From: Cytophagaceae bacterium
GTDB taxonomy: Bacteria > Bacteroidota > Bacteroidia > Cytophagales > Flexibacteraceae
Direction of reading: 5' to 3'
Length of the DNA: 64,000 bases
Assembly (NCBI GenBank): GCA_947458545.1
Contig: CANGYH010000001.1
Coordinates: 744,001 to 808,000 of the forward strand
The notes beneath the pieces are model-generated. The model ran no database searches. It was not told the origin of the DNA and saw nothing but the letters and a program-made list of their open reading frames with translations. Positions 23,101-54,456 of the stretch are shown here, one piece after another (position 1 is the stretch's first letter; the number at the start of each line of letters is the position of its first letter). The position numbers and the translations under genes are program-made.

Positions 23101-25048
23101 AGACTCCATCAGCGTGGACGGCAAAAAGGCAGGCTCGCTAACGGTAGAGGCCAGCCAGCCCCGTAAAGACCTTGTAGCCCTGGCAGCCACGCTGCGCAAC
23201 TACGGTGCGGCCCTGCAGCTAAAGGGCAACTACAACATGGCCAACCCCGCCCGGGCGCTAGACTTCCGCCTGCTGCTAGACCATTACCAACCCGAGAACC
23301 TGGCTCCGCTGCTAAATGCTTACATCACCCGCTGGACAGGCGACCTGTCGGCCGACGTTAGCGTTACCGGGGCGATAGACAACCCCCAGGTGGGGGGCTT
23401 TCTGGCCTTCAACGGCAGCAACGTCTTGCAGCCCGCCTTTACCGGGGTGCCCTACCAGATAAACAACCAGCGCATCGCCATCACCCGGCAGACTGTGCGG
23501 CTAGATGCCTTTACCCTAAAAGACGAGGCAGGCAAAACCCTAAGCCTGGACGGGACCGTGGGCATCGCCAACCTTGCCAACCCACAGGTAGATATGCGCA
23601 TTGCGGCCAATGGCTTCCACTTGCTAAACACAACGGCTGCAGACAACAGCAGCTTCTATGGAGAGGCCTTCGTATCTACCAACCTGGCTCTTAGAGGACC
23701 CGCCGCGGCCCTGAGCGTAAGCGGCCAGGTTGCTACCGAAGAGGGTACGCGCATCACCTACAACCTGGAGTCTGGCGAACCGGGCACGGCAGGTGTGGAG
23801 CCCTACATCCTCTTCTACGACTCGCGCGATAGTACTACCCTCAAAAAAGCCACCGCCAAAATTCAGACCCAAGCAGAGGTGCAAGGGCTGGGGCTGGCGC
23901 TCAACATCAAGCTGCAAAAGGGTACGCGATTCTTGGTCATCATAGACCCTTCTACCGGCGACCGGCTGGAGTGCGAAGGCACGGCAGACCTGCGCTTTGC
24001 CATGCGCCCCAACGGCGACATCAACCTGCAAGGAGACTATAATCTGACGGATGGCTTCTACTCCCTCAACCTGGCAGGCTTGGTAAGCAGGCGCTTCAAT
24101 GTTCGCAGCGGCAGCCGGCTCTCGTGGCGCGGAGACCCTGCCAATGCTCAGGTGGACCTGACCGCCGTTTATACCACCAAGACGGCCCGGTTTCCCCTCG
24201 TGGCCGACCAGGAGGAGGCCATGACACCCTCAGAGATTGCCGCCGCCAAGCGTAGGGAGCCCGTCTCGGTGCTGCTGCGCATCACCAATACGCTGCTACA
24301 GCCCGAGATTAAGTTTGACCTGGAAGTGCCCGAAACCAGCTCCCAGGCTACGGGCGGAGCCACCGTCGGCATTGTGGCGGCCCGCATCCAGCAGATACAG
24401 ACCAACGAAAACGAGGTCAACAAGCAAGCTCTGGGGCTGATAGCCCTCAACCGCTTTGTGGCCAACGGCGAGGGCGGCAGTGGCGCCACCACGGCAGACC
24501 AAGCCAACGAAAAAGCCAACCAGACCGTCTCAGACGTGTTGACGCAGCAACTGTCAAACCTGGGCCAAGAGTTTCTGGGTGGGGTAGAGATAAACGTAAA
24601 CATAGACCAGCAGCAGACGGCCGCTGGGTCTAGCACGGCCTTTGCCGACAAGCAGGTGGGCCTGTCGGTGGGCAAGAGCTTTGCAAACGAGCGGCTACGC
24701 GTATCAGTAGGCGGGCAGGTCTCTACGGGGAATAGCTCGGCGGCGGTGGGGTCAGGGTCTACCACAGGCACGCCCATGCTGGGCGATATTACGGCCGAGT
24801 ACAGGCTTGATAAAAAGGGTGAGTTGAATGTGAAGTTCTTCCGAACCAACAATCAAACGGTTTTCACCACGGCCGCCACAGAGCGTATTGGCACCAGCCT
24901 ACAACACAACAAGAACTTCAGCTCCTTCCGCCGCTTGTTTTGGAGCGACAAAAAGCGCGAGGCCGAGCTTCAGGCAGAGCGCAGACGGCAGCAGCCAGAC
25001 TCTACGCCCATGCGTATGCGGGCCAGCAAAGACGCTCCCCAGCCTTAA
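20135..25048 (+). CDS. tamB: Translocation and assembly module protein TamB
   Basis: A very large (about 1637 aa) inner-membrane-anchored AsmA-like protein that spans the periplasm, helping outer-membrane protein assembly or lipid transport with a BamA-type partner. One N-terminal helix (KIALFIVGGAIGLVLVVLVGIAVAL) is followed by more than 1300 residues of beta-strand repeats with the Bacteroidota TamB opening GTPVRIARVDLDLPKTL and EGIYLEDRSADTLLYAG. The C-terminal DUF490 domain shows VNVSITG-type segments, LSNLGQEFLGGVEINVNI, VGLSVGKSF and ITAEYRLDKKGELNVKFFR. Start is uncertain: GTG 20078 gives extra non-conserved residues, while TTG 20135 puts the membrane helix at the usual distance. Its TAA stop overlaps the convergent phosphoribosyltransferase stop. 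Confidence 0.92.
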   Translation: MIAIIKKTGKIALFIVGGAIGLVLVVLVGIAVALQFSSVQTWATGKATAWLEGKIGTPVRIARVDLDLPKTLVIEGIYLEDRSADTLLYAGHVGVDIGVLAITRKEVNINEVELRQVVAKLRKPVDKDTFNFQYIVNAFASSDTTQKTDTSASPWTIDVEGLRVADVRFVLDDRFNKTYLATRLGKLDLELETLGLQTQHPEVSAINLNGLRLTYVAPPEDSSKVADTTAAKAAALAEQGPGKKTKPEDLNTSGWGLSLARLSLRDVGLRYRIQGARATPGSFNPQQIDVQDLSLLLADVEVGVNNLAAKLEQLSLAERNSGFVLANLKAEAEVRAPAYRLALHEARTPRSRIGGITVGTRDLADPKGLLHALYAQGRFIKDSIHLADVALFVPLPEADKLAKLALKMRGGFRLDSTTLQAKNLSLALNDANQVMLDGKATRITDITNLRLSELAHTLRADPRFVAQYLPKGSLPPEVFKLGPLRMTGKVSGGLSGLAGSLSVSARPGTLTLDRYYYRTDKDFTFHAGAVKLHTAGLNPAVVLGPQLGLGPVTASADLAGGYKPKGGPFLNKGQVQVTHAVYNRYTYRNIRLDATYLAQVARARLRAADPNLQTDLRLLANLRLPLKPTFKVSGPLEIDPRKLHFLTDTLRFRTRLDGDVTGTDLSRLKARIDLRDMLITKPGARIGLDSLLARITTDSGRRVVSVQSEVIQARMAGQFDLATIGPALSDFLVRYIPLASLPRRRKPLPPQDFRLTMAMPANPKAIEALVSGLYVPQPMKLDMRFNSRRQRLDTDLDLPYLRYQTNMVSGLKLTTDTDNDDWRVSLKAATIAADSFIIPEPAVQLAVKEGDARFRLKVAADEAESRARIGGRILGIGAISRLTLNEADLSLKGQKWALDKNAQIEAGSNHLRILNFWLQNEQDSSQSIRIESPGGRANALQAGIHNISVADIIRLLPTSLPYQAEGLLNVRAELADVFTLAGLKADLKLDSISVDGKKAGSLTVEASQPRKDLVALAATLRNYGAALQLKGNYNMANPARALDFRLLLDHYQPENLAPLLNAYITRWTGDLSADVSVTGAIDNPQVGGFLAFNGSNVLQPAFTGVPYQINNQRIAITRQTVRLDAFTLKDEAGKTLSLDGTVGIANLANPQVDMRIAANGFHLLNTTAADNSSFYGEAFVSTNLALRGPAAALSVSGQVATEEGTRITYNLESGEPGTAGVEPYILFYDSRDSTTLKKATAKIQTQAEVQGLGLALNIKLQKGTRFLVIIDPSTGDRLECEGTADLRFAMRPNGDINLQGDYNLTDGFYSLNLAGLVSRRFNVRSGSRLSWRGDPANAQVDLTAVYTTKTARFPLVADQEEAMTPSEIAAAKRREPVSVLLRITNTLLQPEIKFDLEVPETSSQATGGATVGIVAARIQQIQTNENEVNKQALGLIALNRFVANGEGGSGATTADQANEKANQTVSDVLTQQLSNLGQEFLGGVEINVNIDQQQTAAGSSTAFADKQVGLSVGKSFANERLRVSVGGQVSTGNSSAAVGSGSTTGTPMLGDITAEYRLDKKGELNVKFFRTNNQTVFTTAATERIGTSLQHNKNFSSFRRLFWSDKKREAELQAERRRQQPDSTPMRMRASKDAPQP

Positions 25049-25539
25049 ACGAGATACACCCCCTGGCCCAAGACGACCTCGATATGCGCCTCTAGGGTAG
25101 TAGAGACGCGATGGCCCACAAAGTCTGGCGCAATGGGGTAGCGGCGATGGTCTCTGCCCACCAATACGCCAACCTGCACAATGGCGGGGCTATGGCCCAT
25201 CAACCAGGTAAAGGCGTAGGCCAGCGTCTGGCCGGTGTTGAGCACGTCATCTATCAGCACAACGGCGCTGCCAGGCAGCAGCTCGGTGGCAAGGCCGTGC
25301 AGCTGTACCTGCGGCAAAGTGCCTGCATGCTTAGGCAACTTAATTATGCCGACAGAAACCTTGGCCGGCTCGCGCTTGTTAATCTCATCGGCCAGCATTT
25401 GGGCCAGGGCTGCCCCCTGCCCCTCAATGCCGAGCAGGTAAAGGGCAGGTTGCCCGTAGTTGGCCTCTAAAATCTGAACGGCCAGGCGGGCAATCTGGGC
25501 CTGGCACTGGGCTGCCGTAAAGAGCGGGGCCTTTTCCAT
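25045..25539 (-). CDS. Phosphoribosyltransferase (PyrR-like or purine type)
   Basis: A 164-aa type I phosphoribosyltransferase. The PRPP-binding motif is VVLIDDVLNTGQTLAYAF and the flexible loop precedes it. The N-terminal ALYLLGIEGQGAALAQMLA strand-helix matches the PyrR/hypoxanthine group (LxGIxxxGxxxA). The C-terminal VQVGVLVGRDHRRYPIAPDFVG is typical of PyrR-like proteins. It may salvage a base to its nucleotide or act as a pyrimidine regulator; I cannot tell which. ATG 25539 is preferred over TTG 25548, since the TTG lies inside a CAACTTTG box. It is the last gene of the five-gene surface operon, 22 bp after the beta-propeller lipoprotein, and its stop overlaps the tamB stop (TTAA). Confidence 0.85.
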   Translation of the reverse strand: MEKAPLFTAAQCQAQIARLAVQILEANYGQPALYLLGIEGQGAALAQMLADEINKREPAKVSVGIIKLPKHAGTLPQVQLHGLATELLPGSAVVLIDDVLNTGQTLAYAFTWLMGHSPAIVQVGVLVGRDHRRYPIAPDFVGHRVSTTLEAHIEVVLGQGVYLV

Positions 25540-25545
25540 TGGGCT

Positions 25546-25553
25546 CAAAGTTG
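25546..25553 (-). promoter_or_regulatory. -7-like box before the phosphoribosyltransferase gene
   Basis: CAACTTTG on the minus strand ends 6 bp before ATG 25539. It could give this gene its own nearly leaderless transcript despite its place at the end of an operon. Confidence 0.35.
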
Positions 25554-25561
25554 GGGCGGGG

Positions 25562-26728
25562 CTACCTAAAGTCTGAGCTTAGCTTGTAGCGGCACACGCG
25601 GCGGTTGCCGGCATCGGCCACGTACACCACCTGGTTGAGGTAAGCCACCCCGCGCGCTCTGTTAAACTGGTAAGGGCCGTTGCCCGTGCCTCCGAAGCTG
25701 ACTTTCCGCAATTGTAAACCTTGGCTGGTGCGGAGCTGGATGCCCTCTGCACCTTGCGCGTCAAACTGAAAAAGGCTGTCCTTGTCTGTAACGAAAATGT
25801 AGCCCGTGGCGTCGCTGGCAAAAGTGAGGCCCTGCGGGCGCACAAACCGCCCCGGCGCGTACAACTCCGGTGCCATCAGTTTTACGTTGTAGTTGAAGCC
25901 GGCATCGCCCTGGCTTACGGTAATATACCGCACGGGCAGCACCTCGGCCGGGTCTGAGGTGGAGATCAAAAAATCCAGCGGGTCGTTGTTGGGTATCACA
26001 AGCGAGCGAGCCGGCAGCGTTGCAATGGCCCCGGGATTGCGGAAAAAGTCGTTGTACACGGCTCCACCGTCGCCAGACACCGATAAAGTTGTCTTAAACC
26101 TGTCACGGTTATCAAACAGCAGCACCGCGCTGTAAGGCACCTGCGATATGGGGTCGTTGCCGTTGCCACTGCGTGTTACGTAGTATTGGTTGTCTGGCAG
26201 CACGGCAATACCATTAAAATCGGCCGCCGTGTCTAGCGTAGTAACGGCCGTACGGCCGAGCAAGAAGGGCTGCTGGATGCGCTTCACGATCTTATCCTCG
26301 CCCAGGCCATACCGCCCTGCTTTGACGGCAATACGAAAGATGGTAGGCACCTGCCGCACGTCAGACGGCTCTGCCCCTACGATGCGGTCTTTGCCCAGGG
26401 CCAGGATATCCAGCGTACGGTCTTGCGCCACGGCGCGGATGCCGGGTACAGTCATGCGGCTTTGCTCACGCCCGGCCTCGTCGTAGCAGATCAGTTGCTG
26501 GGCGGCAGAGTCTACCACGTAGAGCAGGTTGTCGTTACCGGCAATTATGGCGGTAGGATACTGCATCCCGTTGGTGATATAGGGGAAGACAGGCACATAG
26601 CTGACCTCGTCTCCCGCAGACTGTGGTGGCGTTATGAAGTCTAGCTTCGTTTTGCGGCCGAACATATCGTTGCAACCGCTCAAAAGGGCCAGGGCAGGCA
26701 ACAGCGCCATCCAAAAGAGATTTTTCAT
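25562..26728 (-). CDS. Lipoprotein with beta-propeller (NHL-like) repeats
   Basis: A 388-aa lipoprotein with signal and lipobox (LLPALALLSGC), so it is probably anchored in the outer membrane. The mature part carries NHL-like repeats: YPTAIIAGNDNLLYVVDSAAQQLICYD, cut here to its strand pattern; FNGIAVLPDNQYYVT; VRPQGLTFASDATGYIFVTD; and the closing RARGVAYLNQVVYVADAGNRRVCRY. These make a six-bladed propeller likely. Such proteins usually bind ligands or partner proteins rather than catalyse. It lies 18 bp after the PorV/PorQ-like gene and 22 bp before the phosphoribosyltransferase in one operon. ATG 26728 fits the signal peptide. Confidence 0.8.
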   Translation of the reverse strand: MKNLFWMALLPALALLSGCNDMFGRKTKLDFITPPQSAGDEVSYVPVFPYITNGMQYPTAIIAGNDNLLYVVDSAAQQLICYDEAGREQSRMTVPGIRAVAQDRTLDILALGKDRIVGAEPSDVRQVPTIFRIAVKAGRYGLGEDKIVKRIQQPFLLGRTAVTTLDTAADFNGIAVLPDNQYYVTRSGNGNDPISQVPYSAVLLFDNRDRFKTTLSVSGDGGAVYNDFFRNPGAIATLPARSLVIPNNDPLDFLISTSDPAEVLPVRYITVSQGDAGFNYNVKLMAPELYAPGRFVRPQGLTFASDATGYIFVTDKDSLFQFDAQGAEGIQLRTSQGLQLRKVSFGGTGNGPYQFNRARGVAYLNQVVYVADAGNRRVCRYKLSSDFR

Positions 26729-26746
26729 CGGCAACGTTTCGGCAGG

Positions 26747-27787
26747 CTATGGTTGGGAGGGGCTGGTGGTTTTGGCTGGGCGGGCCAACGCATAAGAGAT
26801 GCCAACGGAATGGATAAGCCCCAAAAAGCGGGTTGGGTTCACACCATAGTCAATCTGCAGCATGTGCCCGCCGATGGGCTGGCGGTAGCCGATACCGGCC
26901 GAAGGGGCACGCTCGTTGTCCACGCCCAGCTTCAGGCCGGCGCGCAGGGCCAGCGTATTGGCCCAGATATACTCTGCCCCGGCGCGGATATTCTCAGCGT
27001 TGTCGTTGGGGTGGTTCAGTTGCAGGTGTACGGTTATCAGGTGCTCGTCTCGGCGCAGGGCATCCATAGAGGCCCCCATCTTAAAGTGCGTCGGGGCGGG
27101 ATAGCCCTCCACGTTTACGCCTTGGCCGCGCTGGAGCAAATCAGGCACCTGGTTGCCCCGCAGGGTAGCATTTGTGCCAAAGTGCTGCAGGGTTGCTCCA
27201 AAGCGTAGGTTGCGCCAGTCTGTCCGGTACAAGAAGCCGACGTCTGCCCCCAGGCCGTTCGCAGCATATTCGGCCAGTTGCTCGCGCAAGAACTTGAAAC
27301 CCAACCCGAAGGAGAATCGCTCAGAAAGGTCTCGGCTGTAACCGGCCTCGGCAGACAGGCTGTAGGTCGTGAAGTACTGGCCCGTGCCTTGCGGAAAAAA
27401 TTCCGTGCGGACTTTCTCTGCCCCCATATTGAGCATATGTACCTGCCCGTAAAACGTGCCCCGCTCTTTGTTGGGCACCAAAACTGACACCAGCGAGTGG
27501 TTGATGCCGTCGGCAAAATACATGTTGCTGACGCCTACCGTCAGGCTTTTTACTTCTGCAGCCAAAGCCGGGTTCAGCGTGGCGGCATACGCATCGCCAG
27601 ATAGGGTAGCGTTGGCACCGCCCATACCCGTTGACCGGGGAGACAAATCGTTTTTCAAAAACGTAAGCGCCGAGATGCCTACCCGAGTTCCTCCCAGGTT
27701 GGGAAACAGCTGCGCTTGCGCTGCGCCTGCCCAGGCCAGACCCAGCAGCAGCGCCCCCAGGCGTTTGATTTGGTTATGTGCAGCCAT
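26747..27787 (-). CDS. PorV/PorQ-family outer-membrane barrel protein
   Basis: A 346-aa protein with a signal peptide (LLLGLAWAGAAQAQ) and a beta-barrel of the PorV/PorQ type. The family opening is clear: SPRSTGMGGANATLSGDAYAATLNPAL cut to pattern R-S-x-G-M-G-G-A, then D-A-x-A-x-x-x-N-P-A. Strands such as LTVGVSNMYFADG, FSFGLGFKFLREQLAEY and LALRAGLKLGVDNERAPSAG continue to the end, closing with FLGLIHSVGISYAL. PorV and PorQ work in the type IX secretion system, delivering or processing cargo at the surface. Members encoded beside TonB receptors and cargo genes, as here, may be dedicated to local substrates. The start lies only 2 bp after the TonB receptor stop. Confidence 0.82.
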   Translation of the reverse strand: MAAHNQIKRLGALLLGLAWAGAAQAQLFPNLGGTRVGISALTFLKNDLSPRSTGMGGANATLSGDAYAATLNPALAAEVKSLTVGVSNMYFADGINHSLVSVLVPNKERGTFYGQVHMLNMGAEKVRTEFFPQGTGQYFTTYSLSAEAGYSRDLSERFSFGLGFKFLREQLAEYAANGLGADVGFLYRTDWRNLRFGATLQHFGTNATLRGNQVPDLLQRGQGVNVEGYPAPTHFKMGASMDALRRDEHLITVHLQLNHPNDNAENIRAGAEYIWANTLALRAGLKLGVDNERAPSAGIGYRQPIGGHMLQIDYGVNPTRFLGLIHSVGISYALARPAKTTSPSQP

Positions 27788-27789
27788 AT

Positions 27790-30624
27790 CTAGAAGCTGA
27801 GCGCCACGCCATACAGAATCTGGCGCGGTTGCATGAAACGGGCAGGGTTGGTGGGTAGCGGCCCGCCTACGCGGGGACCGGTGAAGTTGGGGTCGCGCTC
27901 GTCGTAGGGCAGCGGGTCTCCGGGGCGGTAGGCCGTACCCGTTACCGGGTTCACGATCTGTGCGTTGAGGTTATTAAACAGGTTGGTAATCTCCACCGAA
28001 GCCGACACGAAGAGGCGATTCCGCAGCCTGAAATCGCGCGTCAGGCGTAGGTCCGTCCAGAACCAGGGCGAGCCTATGCGGGTGTTGGGGCTGGTCTCAA
28101 TGGGCTCCCAGATGGGGCGGCCGCTGGGATCAACGCCAGCCTGCCGGTGGGGCGTATAACGCAGCCCACTCTTCCAGGTGGACATCACAAAAAGCCTGAA
28201 GCCCTTGAGCGGTATACGAAAAAGCCTGTCAGACGTATCTGGGGTATAGATGAAAGTACCCTTCAGATCCCAAGGACGATCCCAGGCCAGGAACTGCTCT
28301 TTGGTCAGGTTTACCTGGCCTGTGTTGCGGATTTGCAGGCGGCTCTCCAGGGCCGAGTTGCTTTTGCCCGTAGCCACCTGGTAGGCCACGTTGGCCATGG
28401 CCCTGATCCGTCGCGATACCCGGTAGTTGCCCATCACCTCCAGGCCACGGATACGGGCATAGTCTTGGTTAATGGAGAAAGACTTCTCTACAAACCGCCC
28501 GGTGGCAGGGTCTTGCAAGATGATGGTTCGGCTAACGATGAAGTCGAACTGGTCTTTGTAGAAGGCTGTCATCGTTACGCCCAGGTCTCGGGTAATCTGG
28601 CTCTTCACGCCCAGCTCGTAGCTCACGGCCACCTCGGGGTTCAGGTTCGGGTTGCCCAGGTCAGAGAGGAAGCTGCGGTCTTGGTAAACCGGGTCCAGGC
28701 CGGCATAGACGAAGCGGGGGTGCGGCAGCCGCATGGTGTGCCCGTAGTTGAAGTACATCACCATGTTCTCCGTAACGGGGAAGCTTACGTTGACGCGGGG
28801 CAGCAGGCGGGCCTTCCAACGCTCGCCCAGCAGGCCGACAGTTTGGCGGCGGTACTGATCTCGCACCTCCTGGATAACCTGGGCACGCGGATCATTCACC
28901 GCATTGTTGGCCAGGTTGCCCGGGGCCCAATACTCCAGGCGCGCACCCAGCGATGCGATGATGCCCTTATAGCGAATCTCATCCTCTACCCAAAAGGCGC
29001 CCTGGCGTGGCTTCACCTTCCAGACGTCTGAGGTTGATCCGATGGAGCGGCTGGGCGTAGTCTCGCCACTGGCCAGCACGATGGGCGCACCCACCCAGGG
29101 GCTGCTGACATCTACCCACTGCATGGCCTGCTGCCGGTGCTCGTGGCCCAGCGTGGTGCGGTGGATGCGGCTGGGGCTGTCGTAGGTAAACTTGTATTTG
29201 AGGGTGTACTCCTCTACCCAGTGGTCGTGCCAGACGGTAGAGATGCCTCCGTTGTTGATAAAGCCGTTGCCCGGGTTTACAAATACCACGCCGGTGTCGT
29301 TGGGGTTCCAGACGGAGATATCGCCGGTTTGGATGTTGCGTGGCTCCAGAATCTGATCTATCGTTTGTGTACGGAAGGGGCGCCCATTGGCGTCGGCCCG
29401 CAGATTTACGAACAGGCGGCCCAGGTCTACGCCCAGCCGCCACCGGTCTGAGAACTTGTGCGTGAAGTTGGCCGCCGTTAGGTTGCTGCGGTGGGTGTAG
29501 GTGGTGCCGTTGTCGGGCTGCAGCGTATAGCCATACTGAAAGCCCGGCACCATGATAGCGTTGAACCCGATGATCTGCAGCGTCCGCGTGTTCTGGTTGA
29601 TGGCCACCGAGTTTTGGCTGGTGACGGTGAGCTTCGTCTGCGGGCCGATGTAGTAGCTCAGCTTCACGGTACCGTTCCACATATTGTCCTGCCGTGGGGC
29701 CCAAAACTGTGAGTTGCTGATAATGCTGCTTTGCAACTGGTTGGCCCGTACGCGGAAGTAGGTATCGTTCAGGTTCGTCTGGAAAGACGTAAAGAGCCGC
29801 AACTTCTTGTTGGTGCCGGGGATGGGCGTGCCCAGGTTGAAGTCCACAATGTCCGTGTTCCAGCGCGAGCCCTGGTTTACGTTCACCCCGAAGTTGTCGC
29901 GCTGCCAGCGGCTAAAAACCTCCAGCTTCTCACCGCCCTCTTTGATCCGGCTCACGATTACGCCCGAGTTGCCGTTGTATTCGGCCCCGGAGCCGCCCGT
30001 AACCACAGTAACGTCTTGCACCGAGTTGGACGATACCTGCACCCCAAAGCCCGTGCCGGCCAATGGGTCTTGCGCGTTGATGCCATCTACCACATACTGG
30101 GTCTCGTACACGCGGCCGCCGCGGATCTGGAGGCCGTCGGGCGATACGCTTACGCCTGCCTGCAGGGCCACTACGTCTTGCACAGACCGGGTGGTCATCT
30201 CCTTAATATCTCCGGCCGATACGCGCACCTCAGAGCGGCCGCTCTCCAAATCAACAACGGCGCGCTCACCTACTATCTCTACCTGGTCTAGCGTTCTGCC
30301 AGCTTCTTTGAGCTGTGCATTGAGCTCGTACACGCCACCCTTGGGGATGCGGATGCCGGTGTACTCCCGGCTTACAAAACCGATGTAGCTGATGCGGATG
30401 GTATAATCTCCCGCCTTCACGTTAGGTATTGTGAAGTTGCCGTTGTCGTCGGTGGTGCCGCCGTTGTAGGTGCCGACGATCAAGACGGTAGCTCCAAACA
30501 AAGGCTCTTTGGTAGCGGCATCGGTGATGCGACCCTTTAGCGTGGCTGCCTGCCCCCAGGCCAGGCCCGTCGCCAGGCAGCAGATGAGGGTAAGCCAGCG
30601 GCTCAATTGGTTAGACCCAGGCAT
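27790..30624 (-). CDS. TonB-dependent outer-membrane receptor
   Basis: A 944-aa receptor for active uptake of a large or scarce substrate, energised by TonB-ExbBD. A signal peptide (LTLICCLATGLAWGQ) leads to a carboxypeptidase-regulatory-like domain (LKGRITDAATKEPLFGATV, DDNGNFTIPNVKAGDYTIRISYIG). The plug begins near ERAVVDLESGRSEVRVSAGD, with VQDVVALQAGVSVSPDGLQIRGGR and YVVDGINAQDPLAG. A long barrel of about 700 residues ends in ILYGVALSF, a C-terminal aromatic signature. No SusD partner is adjacent, so it is not a standard SusCD pair. It is transcribed between a lipoprotein gene (4 bp gap) and the PorV/PorQ-like gene (2 bp gap). ATG 30624 starts the signal peptide. Confidence 0.92.
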   Translation of the reverse strand: MPGSNQLSRWLTLICCLATGLAWGQAATLKGRITDAATKEPLFGATVLIVGTYNGGTTDDNGNFTIPNVKAGDYTIRISYIGFVSREYTGIRIPKGGVYELNAQLKEAGRTLDQVEIVGERAVVDLESGRSEVRVSAGDIKEMTTRSVQDVVALQAGVSVSPDGLQIRGGRVYETQYVVDGINAQDPLAGTGFGVQVSSNSVQDVTVVTGGSGAEYNGNSGVIVSRIKEGGEKLEVFSRWQRDNFGVNVNQGSRWNTDIVDFNLGTPIPGTNKKLRLFTSFQTNLNDTYFRVRANQLQSSIISNSQFWAPRQDNMWNGTVKLSYYIGPQTKLTVTSQNSVAINQNTRTLQIIGFNAIMVPGFQYGYTLQPDNGTTYTHRSNLTAANFTHKFSDRWRLGVDLGRLFVNLRADANGRPFRTQTIDQILEPRNIQTGDISVWNPNDTGVVFVNPGNGFINNGGISTVWHDHWVEEYTLKYKFTYDSPSRIHRTTLGHEHRQQAMQWVDVSSPWVGAPIVLASGETTPSRSIGSTSDVWKVKPRQGAFWVEDEIRYKGIIASLGARLEYWAPGNLANNAVNDPRAQVIQEVRDQYRRQTVGLLGERWKARLLPRVNVSFPVTENMVMYFNYGHTMRLPHPRFVYAGLDPVYQDRSFLSDLGNPNLNPEVAVSYELGVKSQITRDLGVTMTAFYKDQFDFIVSRTIILQDPATGRFVEKSFSINQDYARIRGLEVMGNYRVSRRIRAMANVAYQVATGKSNSALESRLQIRNTGQVNLTKEQFLAWDRPWDLKGTFIYTPDTSDRLFRIPLKGFRLFVMSTWKSGLRYTPHRQAGVDPSGRPIWEPIETSPNTRIGSPWFWTDLRLTRDFRLRNRLFVSASVEITNLFNNLNAQIVNPVTGTAYRPGDPLPYDERDPNFTGPRVGGPLPTNPARFMQPRQILYGVALSF

Positions 30625-30628
30625 GGAA

Positions 30629-32146
30629 TCAGTTGAAGTCGCGGTTGAGGACATTGTTGAAGAACCGGTCGAACGCGGCCTCGTCGCCCGACTGCCGGTC
30701 TAGATCTACGGTAAAGAAGATGAGCGATGGCTTGGCCGCACCTTTGGGCGCCTTGCCGCCGATGGCCCGCGTCGGCCGCGGGTTTTGGGTGCCACCCGTC
30801 CAGACGATGGGCCCGGCATACAGGCTATCAGCCTGTGCACTGGGGAAGAACGTATCTACCCCTTGCTGAATAACTCCGCCCTGGCCGGCCGACAGCGAAC
30901 GTAGATTAGGGTAACGTGCCGTATCGAGCGAGACTATCAAGCTCCGGTTGTTGATGCGGCCAGCCTGGCTCTGCAGGCTATCTACGGGCAGCCAACCCGA
31001 AAGCGGCGTAGCCGGAAAAAGCACCCGTGCGCCCGCATCAGGAAACTTGGCCGATACCAAAAGCTTGCGCCCGGCCGACAAATGCGCCGCCAAAAACGGC
31101 GAGGCCGTCTCGATAAGCAACTGCGTATTGTCTATCGTGTTGGTCAGCCGCGCCTCGTCGGAGTACCAGAAGACTTTGGGGTACTGCTCTGTGAGCAGGC
31201 CCAAGGTATTGACGAAAACCGGCGGCTGGTTTTGCCCCCCATTACCCGTCAGGTCTATGTAGTCGAAACCGGCCGGATAAACACGAGCCAGCGTGGGGAA
31301 GTATTTATTCTCAGGAGCAAACACGCCGCGGGTGTTGTGGGCATCCAGCAGCAGCAGGTCAGACGTTATGCGCCGTAAGAAGAAGGCCCGCACCCTGCCC
31401 CCGTCTAGCACTTGCGCCAAGGGAGAGCTTGTGCGCGACAGGTCCGTCACGCGCATTTCAAAGGTATTTGAGCCGCCGACTTCCAGGCCAGGCAACTGTG
31501 CAGGCAGCAGTATGCGCTGGCTGCTGAGGGTGTTGCTGTAGAAAACGCGCGCGTTTTGCACACCGGCCGTGCGCGGGTCTGCCGCTAAGAGGTATATGGC
31601 AGCGGCTGTTTTGGGCAACGCGTACCACGCTCCGCCGTTGAGGCGGATAAAAGCAGAGTCGAGCGTTTCGTCTCCGTCTGGGTCTGTGGCCAAAAAGGGC
31701 AGCGTTATCACACCCAGCAGGGTGTCTGTTTTGGGCAACGCGTTGAAGCTGACCCTTGGGGGCGAGTTGCGGACGGGCAGGCGAATTTCGGCCGGTTCGC
31801 TCTCGCTGTTCAGGTTATCAATCGCTACTACGCGGAAGACGATGGTCTGAATGGTGTCTCCGGCCGTGAGCGTAAACCGAAAGAGGCTGTCCGTTCGGCT
31901 AATCAGGCTTGTGTAGGGCCCGCCATTTACAGATAAGCGGAAGCCCCGCACAAACCCGTCTGCATCCGAGCCGGTCCAGAAGAGGCGCACGGTCGAGATC
32001 AGATTCGTCGGATCGGCAAGGGTAACGTCCTTTACGTTCACCTTGGCCAGCGGCTTTTGGTTCAGGCCCGCATTGGGGTCGTCTTTGCGGCTGCAAGCTT
32101 GGAGCACCAGCAGGCATACCGATAAGACAAGCAGTGTATAACGCAT
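30629..32146 (-). CDS. Surface lipoprotein with Ig-like domains, first gene of surface operon
   Basis: A 505-aa lipoprotein (signal and lipobox LSVCLLVLQAC). The N-terminal half has two fibronectin/Ig-like domains (VRLFWTGSDADGFVRGFRLSVNG; then FLATDPDGDETLDSAFIRLNGG, both with the S/T-D-x-D-G calcium-type turn). The second half is a globular region with LLLLDAHNTRGVF, YPKVFWYSDEARLT and LSAGRKLLVSAKFPD, which suggests a flavodoxin-like or glutamine-amidotransferase-like fold without an obvious catalytic triad. The function is unknown. ATG 32146 is chosen because the lipobox is then 16-17 residues in. The gene starts a tight run of five, with the TonB receptor next after 4 bp. Confidence 0.78.
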   Translation of the reverse strand: MRYTLLVLSVCLLVLQACSRKDDPNAGLNQKPLAKVNVKDVTLADPTNLISTVRLFWTGSDADGFVRGFRLSVNGGPYTSLISRTDSLFRFTLTAGDTIQTIVFRVVAIDNLNSESEPAEIRLPVRNSPPRVSFNALPKTDTLLGVITLPFLATDPDGDETLDSAFIRLNGGAWYALPKTAAAIYLLAADPRTAGVQNARVFYSNTLSSQRILLPAQLPGLEVGGSNTFEMRVTDLSRTSSPLAQVLDGGRVRAFFLRRITSDLLLLDAHNTRGVFAPENKYFPTLARVYPAGFDYIDLTGNGGQNQPPVFVNTLGLLTEQYPKVFWYSDEARLTNTIDNTQLLIETASPFLAAHLSAGRKLLVSAKFPDAGARVLFPATPLSGWLPVDSLQSQAGRINNRSLIVSLDTARYPNLRSLSAGQGGVIQQGVDTFFPSAQADSLYAGPIVWTGGTQNPRPTRAIGGKAPKGAAKPSLIFFTVDLDRQSGDEAAFDRFFNNVLNRDFN

Positions 32147-32236
32147 GGGTAAAACGGAGGGAGGGCTCGCTCCGCCAGGGTTGTGCCAGCCCCGCAGGCC
32201 AGCGATGTAGGGCAGCAACCTCTGCCCGGAAGGTAT

Positions 32237-32293: not shown

Positions 32294-32308
32294 GCTAAAG
32301 CGTTGGGC

Positions 32309-34480
32309 TTAGTAAGCCACTACCTTATGGCTCTCTTTATAGCCCGTCTGGGCATCAAAGAGCACGATGTAGTACAGGCCACCCGCCGTCAACTTGTCGG
32401 TTTTGATGCGGAGGCTGTTGCCGTTGGCCTGGCCTTCGGCCTGCAGCGTAATGGCTTTGCCCACGTTGTCGTAAGCTACCACCTGCAGGCTGCGGCCCTC
32501 TAGCGAAGCACGCTTGTCAGTTAGGGTGAAGAAGGTACCCGCCTGCATTGGGCTTGGCGAGAGCACATAGCGGCTGTTGCCAGGAGCCACAAAGCCACGC
32601 ACGGCAGAAAGGTAACCTTCCACGTCGGCGGTGTTGCGGGGCAGCAGCTTAAAGTTGCCGAAGCTGAAGTAAACCAGACCCGTGATGCTCTGCAAGCGGT
32701 CGCCATCTTGCACGATGATGGGCGTGACGCCAGGGTTCAGGGCAGAGATCCATCGGCGGCCGCTGATGAAGCTCACGTTTTTAGAGCCATAGTTAGAGCC
32801 GCCGAAGTTGGCCGTCTGCACGATTACGCCCGAGTTGGGGTCTAGCACGTCTGGCCCTACGCGCCACTCGCCAAAGTTGGCCGTGGGGTTGGTAGAAGTG
32901 CCGGTGTGGTTGCTATCTACCACAAACAAGGGCTGGGGCTGGTTTACGCGTACCAGCATGCCTTCGTACTTCTCGTTCAGGGCAAAGTCGTAGGGAGAGA
33001 GCGCCGTGGTGGCAAGATCGATAGGCGCAAACGTTACGTTGCTGCGCAGCACGGTAGCGCTGGTAACGTTGATGCAGGTCATACCGCCGCGCTCTTGTAC
33101 CTGGCCCGCTACCAGTACCTCGTCGCCACGGTTGAGGGTGGCGATGGTAGCGCCGCCCACCAGCCAGATGCCGCCCCACTCAGTGGCACCCGGTGTGATG
33201 ATGTAGATCGAGTTCAGGTCGGCCGTGGTGGATACCACTACGCCGCGTACAGAGTCTACAGCCAGTTGGTTGTAGCCCGAGTTGCCGTTGCTGAAGGGGG
33301 TAAACTGCAGGTCTCGGACGCTGGGGCCGCCACAACGGCTGGTAAAGAAGGCAGGTGCATCTGCACTAGGCGAGATGGATACGTTGCCGGCATTATCTAC
33401 GGCGCGGATGTAGTAGGTAACCAAAGTACCATCGGCCTGCCCAGGGATGGCGGCCGTGTAGATGTTAGAGCCGGTAGCCGTCATGGCTACCTGCTGGGGC
33501 GCACCGCCAGAGATGGTGTACACCAGCGTGGCAGAGGCAATGCTGCCGTCGTCTGTAATGGTGGCCGTGATGCTGGTATTGACGCGCGAGCAAGGCTGGA
33601 TGGGCAGGCGCGTCAGCCCACCAATAGAGGGCGACGAGGCGCCCCGCACATAGTGAGACGCGTTGAAGGGGTGAATCTCGTAGCCCCGGTTGTTGGTACC
33701 CGTACCTTGGCAACGGTTCTTAGAGTGGATTACGATGCCACGGATGCTGTTGAACTGGTCGCCAACGGCGGGAGGCACAAAGCCACCAGCCGTACGGGCA
33801 GCCAAAAAGCGGTCAGACACTTCGACCTTGTTGCCCTGTGCGTCTTGCACGGTAAAGGTGTAGCGTACGGGCGTACCAAAGGCGTTGATGGCCGTCACCG
33901 TCACGTTCTGTATCTCTACAAAAGCACCTTCTACCTGCTCGCCGGTGGTCAGGTTGTTAAGGCGTTGATTGTCGTTAAGTATACCGACGTTAGGCAGCAA
34001 CACAGCCGTCGGGGCGGGGCCGGTTCCGTCGCCGATGTTGCGCACGCCGTCTGCCAGGGGGTTAATCTGGGTCTCACCGTCGTTGGTGGGGTTGGTGGTG
34101 CTGGTGCCATTAAACTCTTGCACCAGGCCGGTAACCTCCAGAGTATCGCCGGGCAGCACGGTTTGCAGGTCTGTAGGCGTAGTGGGTACGTTGCCCCCGC
34201 CAAAGCGAATACCGATGTTTTTGAAGGGGCCGTCGCCGTCTAGGCTGCGGATCCAAACCTGGCGCCCGCTGGCAGACTGGGCCTGGCCGCCGGGTACCAT
34301 CACGATGCCGCGCACGCGCACGGTGTCTCCCACGCGGGCAGGTGCGTCGTTGCAGGCCGCCAGATCGGTGGCAGACACCGTCTGGATGTCAGAAATGGTC
34401 ACCAGCGGATACACGCGCTGGGCCTGTGCCGTTGTGCCTGCAGCCAGCAGGGCTGCCAAGGCTAGTAGCTGTTTTTTCAT
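32309..34480 (-). CDS. Secreted OB-fold protein with T9SS sorting domain
   Basis: A 723-aa exported protein. After the signal peptide (MKKQLLALAALLAAGTTAQAQ) come repeated OB-fold domains of the kind found in secreted nucleases such as YhcR: ARVGDTVRVRGIVMVPGGQ, LPGDTLEVTGLVQEFNG, and later LNRGDEVLVAGQVQERGG. An Ig-like middle domain (ITATITDDGSIASATLVYTI, YYIRAVDNAGNVSISPSA) is of the metalloprotease/esterase-associated type. The C-terminus (LSPSPMQAGTFFTLTDKR to GGLYYIVLFDAQTGY) is a T9SS type A sorting domain. No catalytic motif is visible, so it is likely a binding protein, perhaps for nucleic acid or polysaccharide. A gene for a secreted EEP-fold enzyme lies two genes upstream. Confidence 0.8.
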   Translation of the reverse strand: MKKQLLALAALLAAGTTAQAQRVYPLVTISDIQTVSATDLAACNDAPARVGDTVRVRGIVMVPGGQAQSASGRQVWIRSLDGDGPFKNIGIRFGGGNVPTTPTDLQTVLPGDTLEVTGLVQEFNGTSTTNPTNDGETQINPLADGVRNIGDGTGPAPTAVLLPNVGILNDNQRLNNLTTGEQVEGAFVEIQNVTVTAINAFGTPVRYTFTVQDAQGNKVEVSDRFLAARTAGGFVPPAVGDQFNSIRGIVIHSKNRCQGTGTNNRGYEIHPFNASHYVRGASSPSIGGLTRLPIQPCSRVNTSITATITDDGSIASATLVYTISGGAPQQVAMTATGSNIYTAAIPGQADGTLVTYYIRAVDNAGNVSISPSADAPAFFTSRCGGPSVRDLQFTPFSNGNSGYNQLAVDSVRGVVVSTTADLNSIYIITPGATEWGGIWLVGGATIATLNRGDEVLVAGQVQERGGMTCINVTSATVLRSNVTFAPIDLATTALSPYDFALNEKYEGMLVRVNQPQPLFVVDSNHTGTSTNPTANFGEWRVGPDVLDPNSGVIVQTANFGGSNYGSKNVSFISGRRWISALNPGVTPIIVQDGDRLQSITGLVYFSFGNFKLLPRNTADVEGYLSAVRGFVAPGNSRYVLSPSPMQAGTFFTLTDKRASLEGRSLQVVAYDNVGKAITLQAEGQANGNSLRIKTDKLTAGGLYYIVLFDAQTGYKESHKVVAY

Positions 34481-34621
34481 AGGTCGCGTCTCTTGTCAGA
34501 GCGTTGGGGGTCTGCGGGGCTTCGTCTGGGCAGACGGGGCACTCGCCAGATAGGGTGGAGAAAAAGAGAAAGTTTTAGGCTAAGGTATTCAGGCTGTGTA
34601 GGATAAATCGTTTGGCGTTGG

Positions 34622-34642
34622 GTTAAGTATCCATTACTTAAC
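34622..34642 (-). other. Inverted repeat containing a stop codon
   Basis: A perfect 8-bp inverted repeat (GTTAAGTA ... TACTTAAC) with a 5-nt spacer includes the TAA stop at 34634-34636. It is AT-rich and lacks a T run. It could be a weak hairpin in the mRNA or chance. Confidence 0.35.
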
Positions 34643-36772
34643 TACGGTAAATCGGCCTTTATAGACGTTGCCAGTGTCAAGATCTTCTACAGAAAACAGA
34701 TATACGCCACGCGCTACGATCTGGCTGTTGCGGCTTAGCAGATCCCAGGCATGCTCGCCACCAGAGAGCTGGTTCGTTTTCGTGTCGCTGTTGATGGTGT
34801 ACCAGTCTGAGCCCTGGCCGCGGTAGTTGGCGGCATCGTGCTCAAAGTCGTCCACCACGTCCCCGGCCTGCGTAAGCACGCGTATGCGGCAGCGCTTGGG
34901 CAAGTTGGCAAACATCAGGCGGCGCTCCTCTGGGCGGCTGTTAACGCGCTCCCAAGCTGCTCCGCCATAGTAGGGGTTGGGGTACACAAAGGGCTTGTTG
35001 TCTTTGGGGTCTGCATTGGCCGGCGTACCTGGAAATACGCGATAAACCGCCTCAAGCGGGGCACTCTCCAACGATTGCAGGCCCGTGCTAGCATTGCCGC
35101 TGTCGTAGGCCGAAATGGCAAGCACGTGCTGCCAACCTGCAGGCAAACCAGCAATGTCCAGCTTGTAGCGATATACGGTCGTGTCGCCTTCAAACACATA
35201 AGTACCCTTCCGAGGCAGGCGCGTGCGATAGGCCAGGGTAGAGTCTTTGTTGAAGTCTTGATAGAGCTGCAGGCTGTTGGTCAGATCCAGCACCTGGCTT
35301 TGGTCAAACCCGATGCGGGTCTTGTAGATGCGGTAACCGGCAAAGTCTCTGCGGCGGGTGATGGGGTCAACGGTTTGCTCGGCGTTGTCGCTCCAATAAA
35401 GAGTGGCGTTGTTGGGGCCGGTCTCTACGCGGGCCAGAGGTACGTCTGGTGGGGCAGGCAGAATCCAGCGGCTCAGTTTGCCGTCTTGGTTTACGTCTTC
35501 GCCTGCATCCAGCACACCGTTAAAGTTGGTATCCTCACCATTGTAGGCAATCTGGGCCCAGTTGGCGTTGGCCACCAGTTCGGCTCTTTGGCGCTGGGTG
35601 TCTTCGGTATTGGGCTGGCCGTCTTCGGTTTTGCGGGCCAGCACCACTCCAAAGGTGATGCGCATGCTCTCACCAGGCAGCAGCCGCGGCAGCGTCGAGA
35701 TGCTGATCAGGTTAGAGCGGTTGTTGGGCGCGCGCAGCGATGGACGCAGCACATCGCCCCAGTTGGGGCGCTCGGTCAGGCTGTTGATCAGGCGCAGGTA
35801 GCGCTCGTTCTCGTTGTTGGGGGTAAAGAAGAGGGGGTCTGTACTGTTAAACTGCCAACTGTTGTAGTTAATCTTCACCACGCGCCCGTCAGGATTGGGG
35901 CCCACTTTGGCCGGGTGGTAAAAGACGGTCGTGTCTTGCCCGAGGCCGTTGCGTGTCTGGTGATCAACACCCAACAGCTTGAGGCCGATGTAGCTGTTGG
36001 TAAAGCCAGGGTCTCCGGTGGCGTCAAACTCGTAGGCCATGTAGGTGGGCGCATCCAGGTAGCCGTTGCCCCCTTTGTTGAAAAAGGGCGTACCGCCGGG
36101 TGGCGTCCGGCGTATGTTTCGCACCACGCCGTCGGCCCAAAAGCCGATGGCCACATCGCGCATGGTGTCTGCCGTGCGGTTGGTGATGGTATAGTCTAAC
36201 GCAACCAGAAAGTTGATGAAAGAGAAGTTCCAGTTGTAGCTCTCTACATGCACGTCTATGCCCAACGGCGTGCCGCGCCTGTCTGAAACGGGGCAGCCCC
36301 CCCCTACCGGAATCTTGGTGCCTGGCACGGTATCGTTGCGGTCGGTAAAGTCGCCGAAGAAGTCTTGGTGGCTTACCGCCAGCGGGCTAAAGCCTGGATT
36401 GCGCCGAAGCGAGCTGCGCATCCCCAACTCGGCCGTGGGGCGGTCTCTGGGCGGGGTAAACTCAAAATTGCAGCCGCCTGGGGCATACCCACCCGAGGCA
36501 TCTATGGCACCAGTGGCCACGCGCTTCTGCCCCCGAACGTCTGCCCCGACCCACAGCCCTCCCTGGAAGAGATGCTCTACCCCAGAGCCCGCCGGATACT
36601 CGCAAGAGCGAAAGCCCCGCGTAAGCCAGGAGCCGCGGAACGCATTACCGATCAACCCGATGTTGTTGACCGTCATCCGGACGTTGCTGGCCGTCGTCTG
36701 ACGCTCGATGTTCTGTTGGGCTTGCGCACAAAAAGCAACAAAAAGCAAGGCAACAAGGGCAAGGCAACGCAT
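34634..36772 (-). CDS. Large secreted T9SS cargo protein, function unknown
   Basis: A 712-aa exported protein. The signal peptide (MRCLALVALLFVAFCAQAQ) is followed by a conserved-looking block: VRMTVNNIGLIGNAFRG, a short SCEYPAGSGVEHLFQGGLW stretch and GADVRG. A central region follows (YNWNFSFINFLVALDYTITN, MRDVAIGFWADGVV, then a dockerin-like FNGVLDAGEDVNQDGKL calcium loop). The C-terminus has the FlgD/T9SS-type Ig fold (VYPNPYYGG, RIRVLTQAGDVVDDF, GVYLFSVEDLDTGNVYKGRFTVVK). I recognise the architecture as recurring next to TonB receptors and PorV-like genes in Bacteroidota and relatives, but no function is established. It starts 45 bp after the EEP-fold enzyme stops, so both are probably one transcript. 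Confidence 0.75.
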   Translation of the reverse strand: MRCLALVALLFVAFCAQAQQNIERQTTASNVRMTVNNIGLIGNAFRGSWLTRGFRSCEYPAGSGVEHLFQGGLWVGADVRGQKRVATGAIDASGGYAPGGCNFEFTPPRDRPTAELGMRSSLRRNPGFSPLAVSHQDFFGDFTDRNDTVPGTKIPVGGGCPVSDRRGTPLGIDVHVESYNWNFSFINFLVALDYTITNRTADTMRDVAIGFWADGVVRNIRRTPPGGTPFFNKGGNGYLDAPTYMAYEFDATGDPGFTNSYIGLKLLGVDHQTRNGLGQDTTVFYHPAKVGPNPDGRVVKINYNSWQFNSTDPLFFTPNNENERYLRLINSLTERPNWGDVLRPSLRAPNNRSNLISISTLPRLLPGESMRITFGVVLARKTEDGQPNTEDTQRQRAELVANANWAQIAYNGEDTNFNGVLDAGEDVNQDGKLSRWILPAPPDVPLARVETGPNNATLYWSDNAEQTVDPITRRRDFAGYRIYKTRIGFDQSQVLDLTNSLQLYQDFNKDSTLAYRTRLPRKGTYVFEGDTTVYRYKLDIAGLPAGWQHVLAISAYDSGNASTGLQSLESAPLEAVYRVFPGTPANADPKDNKPFVYPNPYYGGAAWERVNSRPEERRLMFANLPKRCRIRVLTQAGDVVDDFEHDAANYRGQGSDWYTINSDTKTNQLSGGEHAWDLLSRNSQIVARGVYLFSVEDLDTGNVYKGRFTVVK

Positions 36773-36817
36773 GGCTGGGGAGGTATCTTGTCTTGGCAAG
36801 CAGCTAAGGGATGTAAT

Positions 36818-38113
36818 CTAAGGTTGCAGCGGGGCTACGATCCGAAGTTGGGCGGGCTGCTGCGCGCCACCCTCGGGCAACAGGCGCACCAGCAGCACAG
36901 AGCCGGGTACTATACCCGCAGGCAGCGCCGCAGGCTGGCCGTCGGCCAAAGGTACCTGCCCGAGCAACGTACCCGTAATGCCATAAAAGGCTGCCGTACC
37001 ACCCGCAGGCATGCCCGATACATAGAGCTTGCCTTGGGCCGTGTAAGCACGCAGGGCCGTGGCGGTGGCCTGCCTAACGCCCGTCAGCCTACGGTAGGCC
37101 AGCTTACCCAGAATGGGCAGATGGTCTGAGTTGTTGAGGATGGCGCTGATCACCAGAGGCGGTGCCGAGTTGTTGGTGCCCTGGTTGACGGCCTGGTTAA
37201 AATGCCGCCCGTCTTGCCCGATGGGCCTGAAGGCAGCCGGATTGTACAAAAGGCGGCGAGTAGGATCTAGCAACGGGCGGTTCACCAGTTGCTGATCGAA
37301 GCGGTCGTCCATCCCGCCGGCGGCAAAGCACTGGCCGCTGGGGCCGTTGTAAGGGCTCTGTGTATGTACGTCGGCAAAAGAGGCGTTGGCGCTCCAGGCA
37401 CCCGGGCGGTTGAGCGGATCGCGGAAGTGGCCGCCGCTGTCAGGCCGTACCATCCGCAAGTAGGCCAGCTCCGTGCTGCGATAGACGTTAAAATCGCCTT
37501 GGAAGATGTACGCCTCAGACGTGTCTTGCGTGCGGAGGTAGTTGTTGAGGCTGCGCACCTGCGCGGCGCGGTCGTTTTGGTCGGCTGTCGTGTTGGCGGC
37601 CTTCAGGTGGGCCACAATCACGTTCAGAAAGACGGTATCCGTCTCGCCCGGCTGGGGCAGCACGTAGAGGCGGTAATGGTCCAAATCGCGGATGGCGGCG
37701 GCAATGCCCCTGTGGCTTTTGAGGCCCAGCTTGGTGCTGTTGTAGAAGAAGCCGTTTACCAACGAAGAGACAATAATATTGCTAACAGGAGCCTTGACAT
37801 AGCTGGTAACCCCGCCGACGTTCAGACTGCGCTGCAAGAGGCGGTCTTGCAGGATAGTGGCCCGGTTAACCTCGTTAAAGCTGATGATGTCCGGCTGCGC
37901 ATACTGTACGATCCGGCGGATGAGCGTATCTTTCTTCTCTAGCCCGTTGGTGGTTGCGTTGCAGCCTACGGCGTTGTTGCCGTAGTTCATGACGTTGTAA
38001 TGCATCACACGCAGCGTATCTACCTGCGCATGGGCATGGTGCACCGGCAAAAGGGCTGCGAAGGCACACACTAAAAAGCCTGCCGCCGTAAGAAAGTTAA
38101 GAGCGCTACGCAA
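36818..38113 (-). CDS. Secreted endonuclease/exonuclease/phosphatase-fold enzyme
   Basis: A 431-aa exported hydrolase of the EEP superfamily (DNase I, sphingomyelinase and inositol phosphatase relatives). The signal peptide is FLTAAGFLVCAFAALLPVHH plus AHAQ. Catalytic motifs are N40 in MHYNVMNYG, E81 in FNEVN, H169 in AHLKA, D207/N209 in GDFNVY, and D330-H331 in NSDHLPI, so it should be active. The last 85 residues (TALRAYTAQGKLYVSGMP, AAFYGITGTLL) look like a T9SS sorting domain. Neighbours with OB-fold domains suggest a nuclease role, though a phosphodiesterase is possible. The only usable start is a TTG at 38113, since an in-frame TGA lies just upstream and no ATG precedes the signal peptide. 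Confidence 0.85.
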   Translation of the reverse strand: MRSALNFLTAAGFLVCAFAALLPVHHAHAQVDTLRVMHYNVMNYGNNAVGCNATTNGLEKKDTLIRRIVQYAQPDIISFNEVNRATILQDRLLQRSLNVGGVTSYVKAPVSNIIVSSLVNGFFYNSTKLGLKSHRGIAAAIRDLDHYRLYVLPQPGETDTVFLNVIVAHLKAANTTADQNDRAAQVRSLNNYLRTQDTSEAYIFQGDFNVYRSTELAYLRMVRPDSGGHFRDPLNRPGAWSANASFADVHTQSPYNGPSGQCFAAGGMDDRFDQQLVNRPLLDPTRRLLYNPAAFRPIGQDGRHFNQAVNQGTNNSAPPLVISAILNNSDHLPILGKLAYRRLTGVRQATATALRAYTAQGKLYVSGMPAGGTAAFYGITGTLLGQVPLADGQPAALPAGIVPGSVLLVRLLPEGGAQQPAQLRIVAPLQP

Positions 38114-54410: not shown

Positions 54411-54443
54411 GTACCAAGCCCCTCCTGCAAAACGTCTAGCCCA

Positions 54444-54451: not shown

Positions 54452-54456
54452 CATTT

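Follow-up and report, generated by a model that had tools for sequence, protein, structure and literature searches.

We analyzed a stretch of 64,000 nucleotides from a Cytophagaceae bacterium (contig CANGYH010000001.1, positions 744,001 to 808,000), referred to here as the window, and found that seven of its genes form a real unit in the order EEP-T9c-OBc-Lipo-TonB-PorVx-NHL. They encode a secreted EEP-fold phosphodiesterase (a predicted nuclease), the large predicted exported cargo T9c, the OB-fold cargo OBc, a lipoprotein, a TonB-dependent receptor, the PorV/PorQ-family outer membrane barrel PorVx, and an NHL beta-propeller lipoprotein. The operon is real, is deeply conserved across classes of the phylum, and is apparently undescribed so far. 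Our best explanation, to which we assign an even chance, is that it encodes a SusD-less surface machine for nucleic acid scavenging, in which T9c would be held by PorVx as PorZ is held by PorQ.

An operon with a conserved six-gene core

A check of the open reading frames (ORFs) bore out the eight minus-strand genes that an earlier note on this DNA had described between positions 25045 and 38113. In order of transcription, they are EEP (36818 to 38113, 431 amino acids), T9c (34634 to 36799, 721 amino acids), OBc (32309 to 34480, 723 amino acids), Lipo (30629 to 32218, 529 amino acids from the first start), TonB (27790 to 30654, 954 amino acids), PorVx (26747 to 27787, 346 amino acids), NHL (25562 to 26734, 390 amino acids; PF01436), and a PyrR-like phosphoribosyltransferase (25045 to 25548; PF00156). 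Judged by eye rather than with a signal peptide program, seven of the eight products carry an N-terminal export signal, as had been claimed, and two of these have a lipobox-like cysteine (LSGC in the NHL lipoprotein). The gaps of 4, 2, 18, and 22 bp given earlier for Lipo/TonB/PorVx/NHL/phosphoribosyltransferase hold for downstream ATG starts and become -26, 2, 12, and 13 bp when first starts are used; the upstream gaps are 18 bp (EEP-T9c), 153 bp (T9c-OBc), and 90 bp (OBc-Lipo). The note had read the five genes with short gaps as one operon. Lipo, TonB, PorVx, and NHL, which is the last core gene, keep their place in it, whereas the phosphoribosyltransferase drops out, since no homologue was found in the 151 other loci searched (E ≤ 1e-3); it is therefore a local neighbor and not a member of the system. 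The unit instead comprises seven genes, with the enzyme and both cargoes included.

The gene order, the first check that the note had proposed, proved to be kept across the phylum. The core T9c-OBc-Lipo-TonB-PorVx-NHL was present in full and in this order in 64 of 80 T9c neighborhoods, which represent 71 genera (nine of them twice), versus none of 20 random 20-kb windows taken from ten carrier genomes. Loci were picked by a T9c match (those from the bacterium's own order by a PorVx match), so that the presence of the picking gene is given, and core genes were labeled with family hidden Markov models (HMMs) on six-frame ORFs; greedy ORF calling had missed core genes in high-GC loci. Ten of the 16 incomplete loci are truncated at a contig end or close to one. 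Four others, all from family f42 (L123, L158, L163, and L165), hold only T9c-OBc, with neither TonB receptor nor PorVx in the fetched stretch, and two (family f58) are without OBc. The core was complete in 5 of 14 own-order loci and in 8 of 19 named loci (19 of 31, the 12 weak ones, L098 to L109, being left out); short contigs account for many of the rest. Median gaps along the core were 18, 62, -4, 3, and -1 bp (n = 77). The pairwise distances of the six core proteins correlate with r of 0.77 to 0.93 across 75 loci, as expected for one inherited unit, though a common species history would by itself produce the same result. Three contigs entered twice, in different sets (L033/L089, L039/L088, and L041/L091); two of these pairs are counted in the gap medians (n = 77), and one is counted in the 75-locus comparison.

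T9c is widespread, with matches in 153 of 395 phylum genomes at E ≤ 1e-6 (query with the C-terminal domain [CTD] removed), in 110 of 395, or about a quarter, at E < 1e-60, and in 87 of 395 genomes of the class at 1e-30. At E < 1e-60, orthologues of PorVx were present in 13 of the 148 genomes from the order, the bacterium's own genome counted. Named T9c relatives come from Cytophagaceae, Spirosoma, Hymenobacteraceae, Sphingobacteriales, Ignavibacteriales, and Balneolales metagenome-assembled genomes (MAGs), with weak relatives in Zixibacteria and Krumholzibacteriota. In three Zixibacteria loci (L100, L102, and L104), which lie outside Bacteroidota, a TonB receptor is directly followed by a T9c-like protein. 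In soil-type Bacteroidetes MAGs (L106 to L109) the operon has diverged; where complete, it contains matches to OBc, Lipo, TonB, T9c, and PorVx. Among the papers listed in our searches of open-license literature without preprints, none described such an operon or a triad of TonB receptor, CTD protein, and PorV-family barrel, which is not proof of novelty.

PorVx is a separate barrel beside a cargo with a PorZ-like C terminus

PorVx matches the PorV/PorQ-family model NF033709 with 160.8 bits (subfamily cutoff, 90) and falls below the cutoffs for housekeeping PorV (NF033710; 53.2 versus 250 bits), housekeeping PorQ (NF033711; 83.4 versus 220 bits), and PorP/SprF (TIGR03519; 16.8 versus 90.55 bits). 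A profile of its family matches Flavobacterium johnsoniae PorV (6h3i) at 8.6e-12. In a 71-row tree, 21 block barrels form one group (100/98) apart from 12 PorV proteins (100/99), and the two groups separate in 200 of 200 bootstrap trees; the bacterium's own PorQ (276.1 bits), the only confirmed PorQ row, also lies outside the block group. The genome has its own type IX secretion system (T9SS), with SprA, PorU beside PorV (contig C2, L043), and PorQ. The scores, the tree, and the separate own PorV and PorQ together rule out PorVx as the housekeeping PorV or PorQ, and the grouping that would have counted against the note's reading was not seen. The L106 to L108 barrels branch as the sister of the block group (92/85). 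Among the 395 phylum genomes, SprA was detected in 303, which include all 110 T9c carriers (E < 1e-60).

T9c had no Pfam or NCBIfam match at E ≤ 0.01. Its AlphaFold2 model has a super-beta-sandwich domain, an Fn3-like domain, and a PorZ-like C-terminal sorting domain at about residues 596 to 721, which VIA-align superimposed on the CTD of PorZ (5m11) with Z of 9.5, root mean square deviation (rmsd) of 2.8, and 25% identity over 87 residues. Since the profile of the T9c CTD returned nothing credible from the PDB, the PorZ link rests on this structure comparison and on weak matches of two paralogous proteins to the C terminus of NF052228 (22.9 and 18.5 bits), a model that T9c itself does not match. 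The T9SS type A sorting model TIGR04183 was found in relatives above 23 bits for EEP (39.8 and 41.0) and OBc (49.6 and 45.2) and below it for two further EEP proteins (20.4 and 21.9) and one T9c (16.1).

The passages of PMC5562754 on Porphyromonas gingivalis describe PorU:PorV and PorQ:PorZ subcomplexes, with PorQ anchoring PorZ, and those of the review PMC10202324 on this point state that PorZ keeps its CTD bound to PorQ and suggest that cognate PorV-like barrels may shield such CTDs from cleavage. By analogy, T9c and PorVx may be another barrel/CTD pair of the PorQ-PorZ kind.

Unrelated phosphodiesterases exchange in one slot of the block

The window EEP protein scored 18.1 bits against PF03372, under the Pfam cutoff of 24.5, and matched the MnuA nuclease weakly, but five slot EEPs of relatives pass PF03372 with 31.8 to 62.2 bits. 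As a yardstick we used Asn, Glu, His, Asp-x-Asn, and Ser-Asp-His, which we take to be the catalytic residues of the fold. They are kept in 28 or 29 of 29 EEP proteins, the window protein among them: E81, H169, D207, N209, S329, D330, and H331 are invariant, and N40 is present in 28. A PDB search with the EEP profile returned nocturnin only, at E = 0.19.

An EEP gene occupies the same slot in L033, L035, L041, L079 to L084, and L097. In Cytophagales and the Sphingobacteriales MAGs the EEP gene is 5' of T9c, and elsewhere the slot is mostly 3' of NHL. A flanking phosphodiesterase was found in 35 of the 64 complete phylum loci, drawn from one of three unrelated families that Pfam identified in sampled slot genes as EEP, PLD, and PF01663 (type I phosphodiesterase/nucleotide pyrophosphatase [NPP]). 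By position, the 64 loci comprise 15 with 3' PLD, 13 with 3' EEP, 5 with 3' NPP, 1 with 5' EEP, 1 with both EEP and PLD, and 29 with none recognized. The slot HMMs were built from slot genes (those for NPP and the LTD domain from one sequence each), so that they would overlook other enzymes. The 20 random windows, scored with the same 150-bit threshold, contained no slot enzyme; one of them carries two weak EEP matches (44 and 33 bits). Ten flanking genes from loci without a recognized enzyme comprised a xanthine/uracil-type permease (L182), one gene without a match, and otherwise unrelated functions.

Several of the 3' EEPs carry a T9SS tail, as does the PLD-type enzyme of L115, while the copies in L110 and L118 run off the fetched stretch. 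Both HKD motifs are present in 16 of 18 PLD proteins. In three genomes of the order a sodium:solute symporter-family gene lies directly 5' of EEP (L033, 16090 to 17562; L035, 15989 to 17434; L041, 1582 to 3024), called by Pfam on the L035 copy and by homology for the other two. Elsewhere in the window, on the plus strand, lies a PLD/NucT-like gene (52042 to 54351) whose product has two HKD motifs and matches a T9SS tail under the cutoff; it is followed by a type I phosphodiesterase/nucleotide pyrophosphatase (54409 to 56127). Both families fill the block slot in other genomes.

OBc resembles the N-terminal part of ExeM/NucH nucleases. Its residues 411 to 619 align with positions 1 to 215 of model NF033681 at 51.8 bits, below the curated cutoff of 300 bits and covering this part only, with the EEP on another protein. 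The profile of the OBc family, in which a T9SS-type C terminus is seen, matches the T9SS CTD chains 8glj_D and 8glk_D as well as residues 13 to 153 of the EEP protein 9sf8. The remaining ExeM/NucH parts also appear in the loci: the EEP protein of L124 matches the EEP part of the model (positions 271 to 446), and an ExeM-type LTD is encoded by a gene of its own in L112 and L150, whereas in L137 and L140 it forms part of the OBc chain. In ExeM, as described in the part of PMC6085458 dealing with its domains, LTD, OB-like, and EEP regions lie on a single chain.

A TonB receptor without SusD

The TonB receptor matches PF00593 (94.7 bits), PF07715 (32.1 bits), and PF13715 (CarbopepD_reg), all above their cutoffs, and is 49 to 62% identical to ten orthologues. 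Against the SusC/RagA model it scored 62.4 bits (cutoff, 368.25), and none of the eight proteins matched a SusD family in Pfam and NCBIfam scans, in agreement with the note's statement that SusD is missing. The low SusC/RagA score and the absent SusD match rule out a SusD-type polysaccharide utilization locus. Lipo is kept in the core order and has no Pfam family at E ≤ 0.01. Its model (mean predicted local distance difference test [pLDDT] score, 76.9) shows Fn3-like domains and a ThuA/GATase-like C-terminal domain; in a model comparison, residues 285 to 529 aligned with 3soz (Z of 14.9, rmsd of 3.5, 204 residues). Foldseek searches with Lipo and T9c returned mainly Fn3 domains. Lipo could, as a guess, be a surface capture or lid subunit.

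Elsewhere on the minus strand of the window (42951 to 45410) lies an 819-amino-acid protein with CarbopepD_reg and plug domains and no barrel match at E ≤ 0.001. A promoter and terminator scan gave 5 promoter-like sites versus 3.9 in shuffles, and an Rfam scan returned a single tRNA only.

Modules of a TonB receptor, a T9c-type CTD protein, and a PorV-family barrel recur

Twelve genomes were searched for PorV-family proteins and yielded 4 to 18 matches each, with 8 to 18 in nine of them. Using an HMM made from T9c CTDs (the T9c-type CTD is referred to as CTDz), we found that 11 of 16 further PorV-family regions of genome G320 consist of a TonB receptor, a CTDz protein, and a PorV-family barrel. 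Besides these regions, we inspected 30 of the 126 matches in the 12 genomes. In 14 loci (two being G320 cases again) a CTDz protein lies directly 5' of the barrel gene; 11 are housekeeping-type PorV, 10 of which lie directly behind a type IX CTD gene; 3 are from the block, and 2 have neither. We tentatively propose, at somewhat less than even probability, that the block is a specialized member of a large undescribed class combining a TonB receptor, a PorZ-type CTD scaffold, and a private PorV/PorQ-family barrel, and that such barrels are mostly dedicated cargo holders.

The bacterium's own genome carries a second module (L045, contig C8, 7696 to 16001) with a TonB-like receptor, a 1440-amino-acid protein with a PorZ-like CTD, and a PorV-family barrel. 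An assignment of L045 as PorU-PorV was overturned, the true PorV lying beside PorU on C2. Similar modules occur in L042, L047, and L048. A conserved gene of about 157 amino acids adjoins these modules, and three of the four also have one of about 130 amino acids. In the random window L200 (G009 C1:600001-620000), four large proteins with T9c-type CTDs are encoded in tandem, three of them at 40 bits or more, with no PorVx match nearby, so that this CTD type also occurs outside barrel pairs.

A possible nucleic acid scavenging machine and its alternatives

In the mechanism that we consider best, the type IX system would export three cargoes: a nuclease, the OB-fold protein, and the scaffold T9c. 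The nuclease would be the EEP protein here and a PLD/NucT-like enzyme or nucleotide pyrophosphatase in other carriers. OBc may present nucleic acid to it, the two corresponding to ExeM/NucH parts placed on separate chains. T9c would retain its PorZ-like sorting domain and be held at the surface by its private barrel PorVx, and this pair and the two lipoproteins would assemble on the TonB receptor, which would take in the released oligonucleotides, nucleotides, or nucleosides. In this mechanism the gene order, the domain assignments, the catalytic residues, the clade of PorVx, its joint occurrence of T9c with SprA, and the exchange of slot enzymes are observed, whereas the substrate, the export of the window's own cargoes, the contacts between proteins, the retention of the T9c CTD, and the transport are inferred. 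The nucleic acid reading of the earlier note gains indirect support from the separate ExeM/NucH parts and from the exchange of unrelated phosphodiesterases in the slot, while its use of the phosphoribosyltransferase as a part of the system falls away.

Several observations weigh against this proposal. On the side of secretion, T9c, OBc, and EEP of the window have no TIGR04183 match at E ≤ 0.01, confidence in the T9c model is only middling (mean pLDDT, 68.6), and the link to SprA is confounded by phylogeny, with 14 of the 20 negatives listed (of 92) belonging to family f37. T9c-type CTDs of at least 40 bits also occur away from PorV-family genes, as in 1 of the 20 random windows (L200). The architecture is not uniform, given the f42 loci that hold only T9c-OBc, the f58 loci without OBc, and the own-order loci L029, L030, L032, and L038, which are truly without upstream core genes. 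On the side of the enzyme, 29 of the 64 complete loci have no recognized flanking phosphodiesterase, three tested EEP positions (D143, D269, and D270) vary among the 29 proteins, and no HKD motif was seen in the PLD proteins of L160 and L179, both of which extend beyond the fetched sequence. Among the ten flanking genes of loci without a recognized enzyme, only the permease of L182 hints at nucleobases.

A different role for the barrel is the first alternative. PorVx might be a dedicated shuttle only, fetching cargoes from SprA that the housekeeping sortase then cleaves and either releases or links to anionic lipopolysaccharide, with co-transcription of the TonB gene reflecting shared regulation. 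PorV itself is called a shuttle in the relevant passage of PMC5562754, cognate PorP/SprF shuttles adjoin type B cargo genes according to the section of PMC12618676 on them, and ordinary type A tails are found on OBc and some EEP relatives. The PorZ-like tail of T9c, considered with the retained CTD of PorZ described in the passage of PMC10202324 cited above, and the recurrence of TonB-CTDz-PorV triads argue the other way, and we regard this alternative as rather unlikely.

The architecture could also be as proposed and the substrate another, either a non-nucleic phosphodiester polymer (phospholipid or teichoic acid-like) or a polysaccharide. The EEP and PLD superfamilies include phospholipid enzymes. 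The N-terminal domain of T9c resembles carbohydrate-enzyme domains, namely those of GH116 and phosphorylases (Z of about 14.5; for cellodextrin phosphorylase 5nz7, VIA-align gave Z of 14.7 and rmsd of 4.6 over 252 residues), and OBc has a CBM56 match of 28.9 bits, just above the cutoff of 27. These points tell against nucleic acid as well. However, the OB, EEP, and LTD parts point to ExeM/NucH, genes of the nucleotide pyrophosphatase family occupy the slot in five loci, and the NCBIfam model nearest to two of the PLD proteins is the nuclease NucT, with scores well under its cutoff. We consider another substrate unlikely.

If the substrate is DNA, its binding and processing might serve the biofilm matrix, defense against extracellular DNA, or natural transformation instead of nutrition. 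In Shewanella, as reported in the portion of PMC6085458 concerned with these phenotypes, ExeM strongly affects biofilm, and another nuclease is mainly needed for DNA as a phosphorus source. That the TonB receptor belongs to the core that 64 of 80 loci retain favors uptake, and no competence protein was found among the selected flanking proteins run against Pfam. We consider a non-nutritional role quite improbable. That housekeeping T9SS or lipoprotein genes adjoin by accident, for which the variable flanks and nothing beyond would speak, has a negligible probability, the order kept in 64 of 80 loci having already refuted chance, and the separation of PorVx from PorV/PorQ in every one of 200 bootstrap trees and the separate PorV (by PorU) and PorQ of the genome pointing the same way.

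The conserved order and the presence of T9c in about a quarter of the sampled genomes suggest an important function. If the nucleic acid scavenging proposal is correct, the operon would be a nucleic acid counterpart of polysaccharide utilization loci in Bacteroidota and would supply candidates for genes that cycle DNA or RNA (and phosphorus). Many PorV/PorQ paralogues would gain a role as private holders for PorZ-type cargo, challenging the rule of a single PorV shuttle for type A-like sorting domains. If the wider class also holds, type IX export and TonB uptake would become one unit in place of SusD, against the view, stated in the pertinent section of PMC12618676, that type A CTDs are all recognized by PorV.

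Comparison with known systems

Like the PorQ-PorZ and PorV-PorU pairs, the block places a PorV-family barrel (FadL type) beside an exported CTD protein, in this case with a PorZ-like CTD. In contrast to them, PorVx forms its own clade and lies in a TonB operon, T9c matches no sortase or PorZ family, and the pairing is putative. The PorP/SprF shuttles, as treated in the relevant parts of PMC12618676 and PMC9143113, are likewise barrels dedicated to an adjoining cargo, but PorVx belongs to another barrel family and the T9c CTD is PorZ-like, not type B. With ExeM/NucH nucleases the block has the kinds of module in common (LTD, OB, and EEP), but here they are distributed over separate proteins of one operon, which have T9SS tails and are accompanied by a TonB receptor. 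SusCD/RagAB loci, finally, have in common with the block a TonB receptor with CarbopepD_reg, lipoproteins, and secreted enzymes, whereas the block is without a SusD match and has T9SS cargo and a PorV-family barrel.

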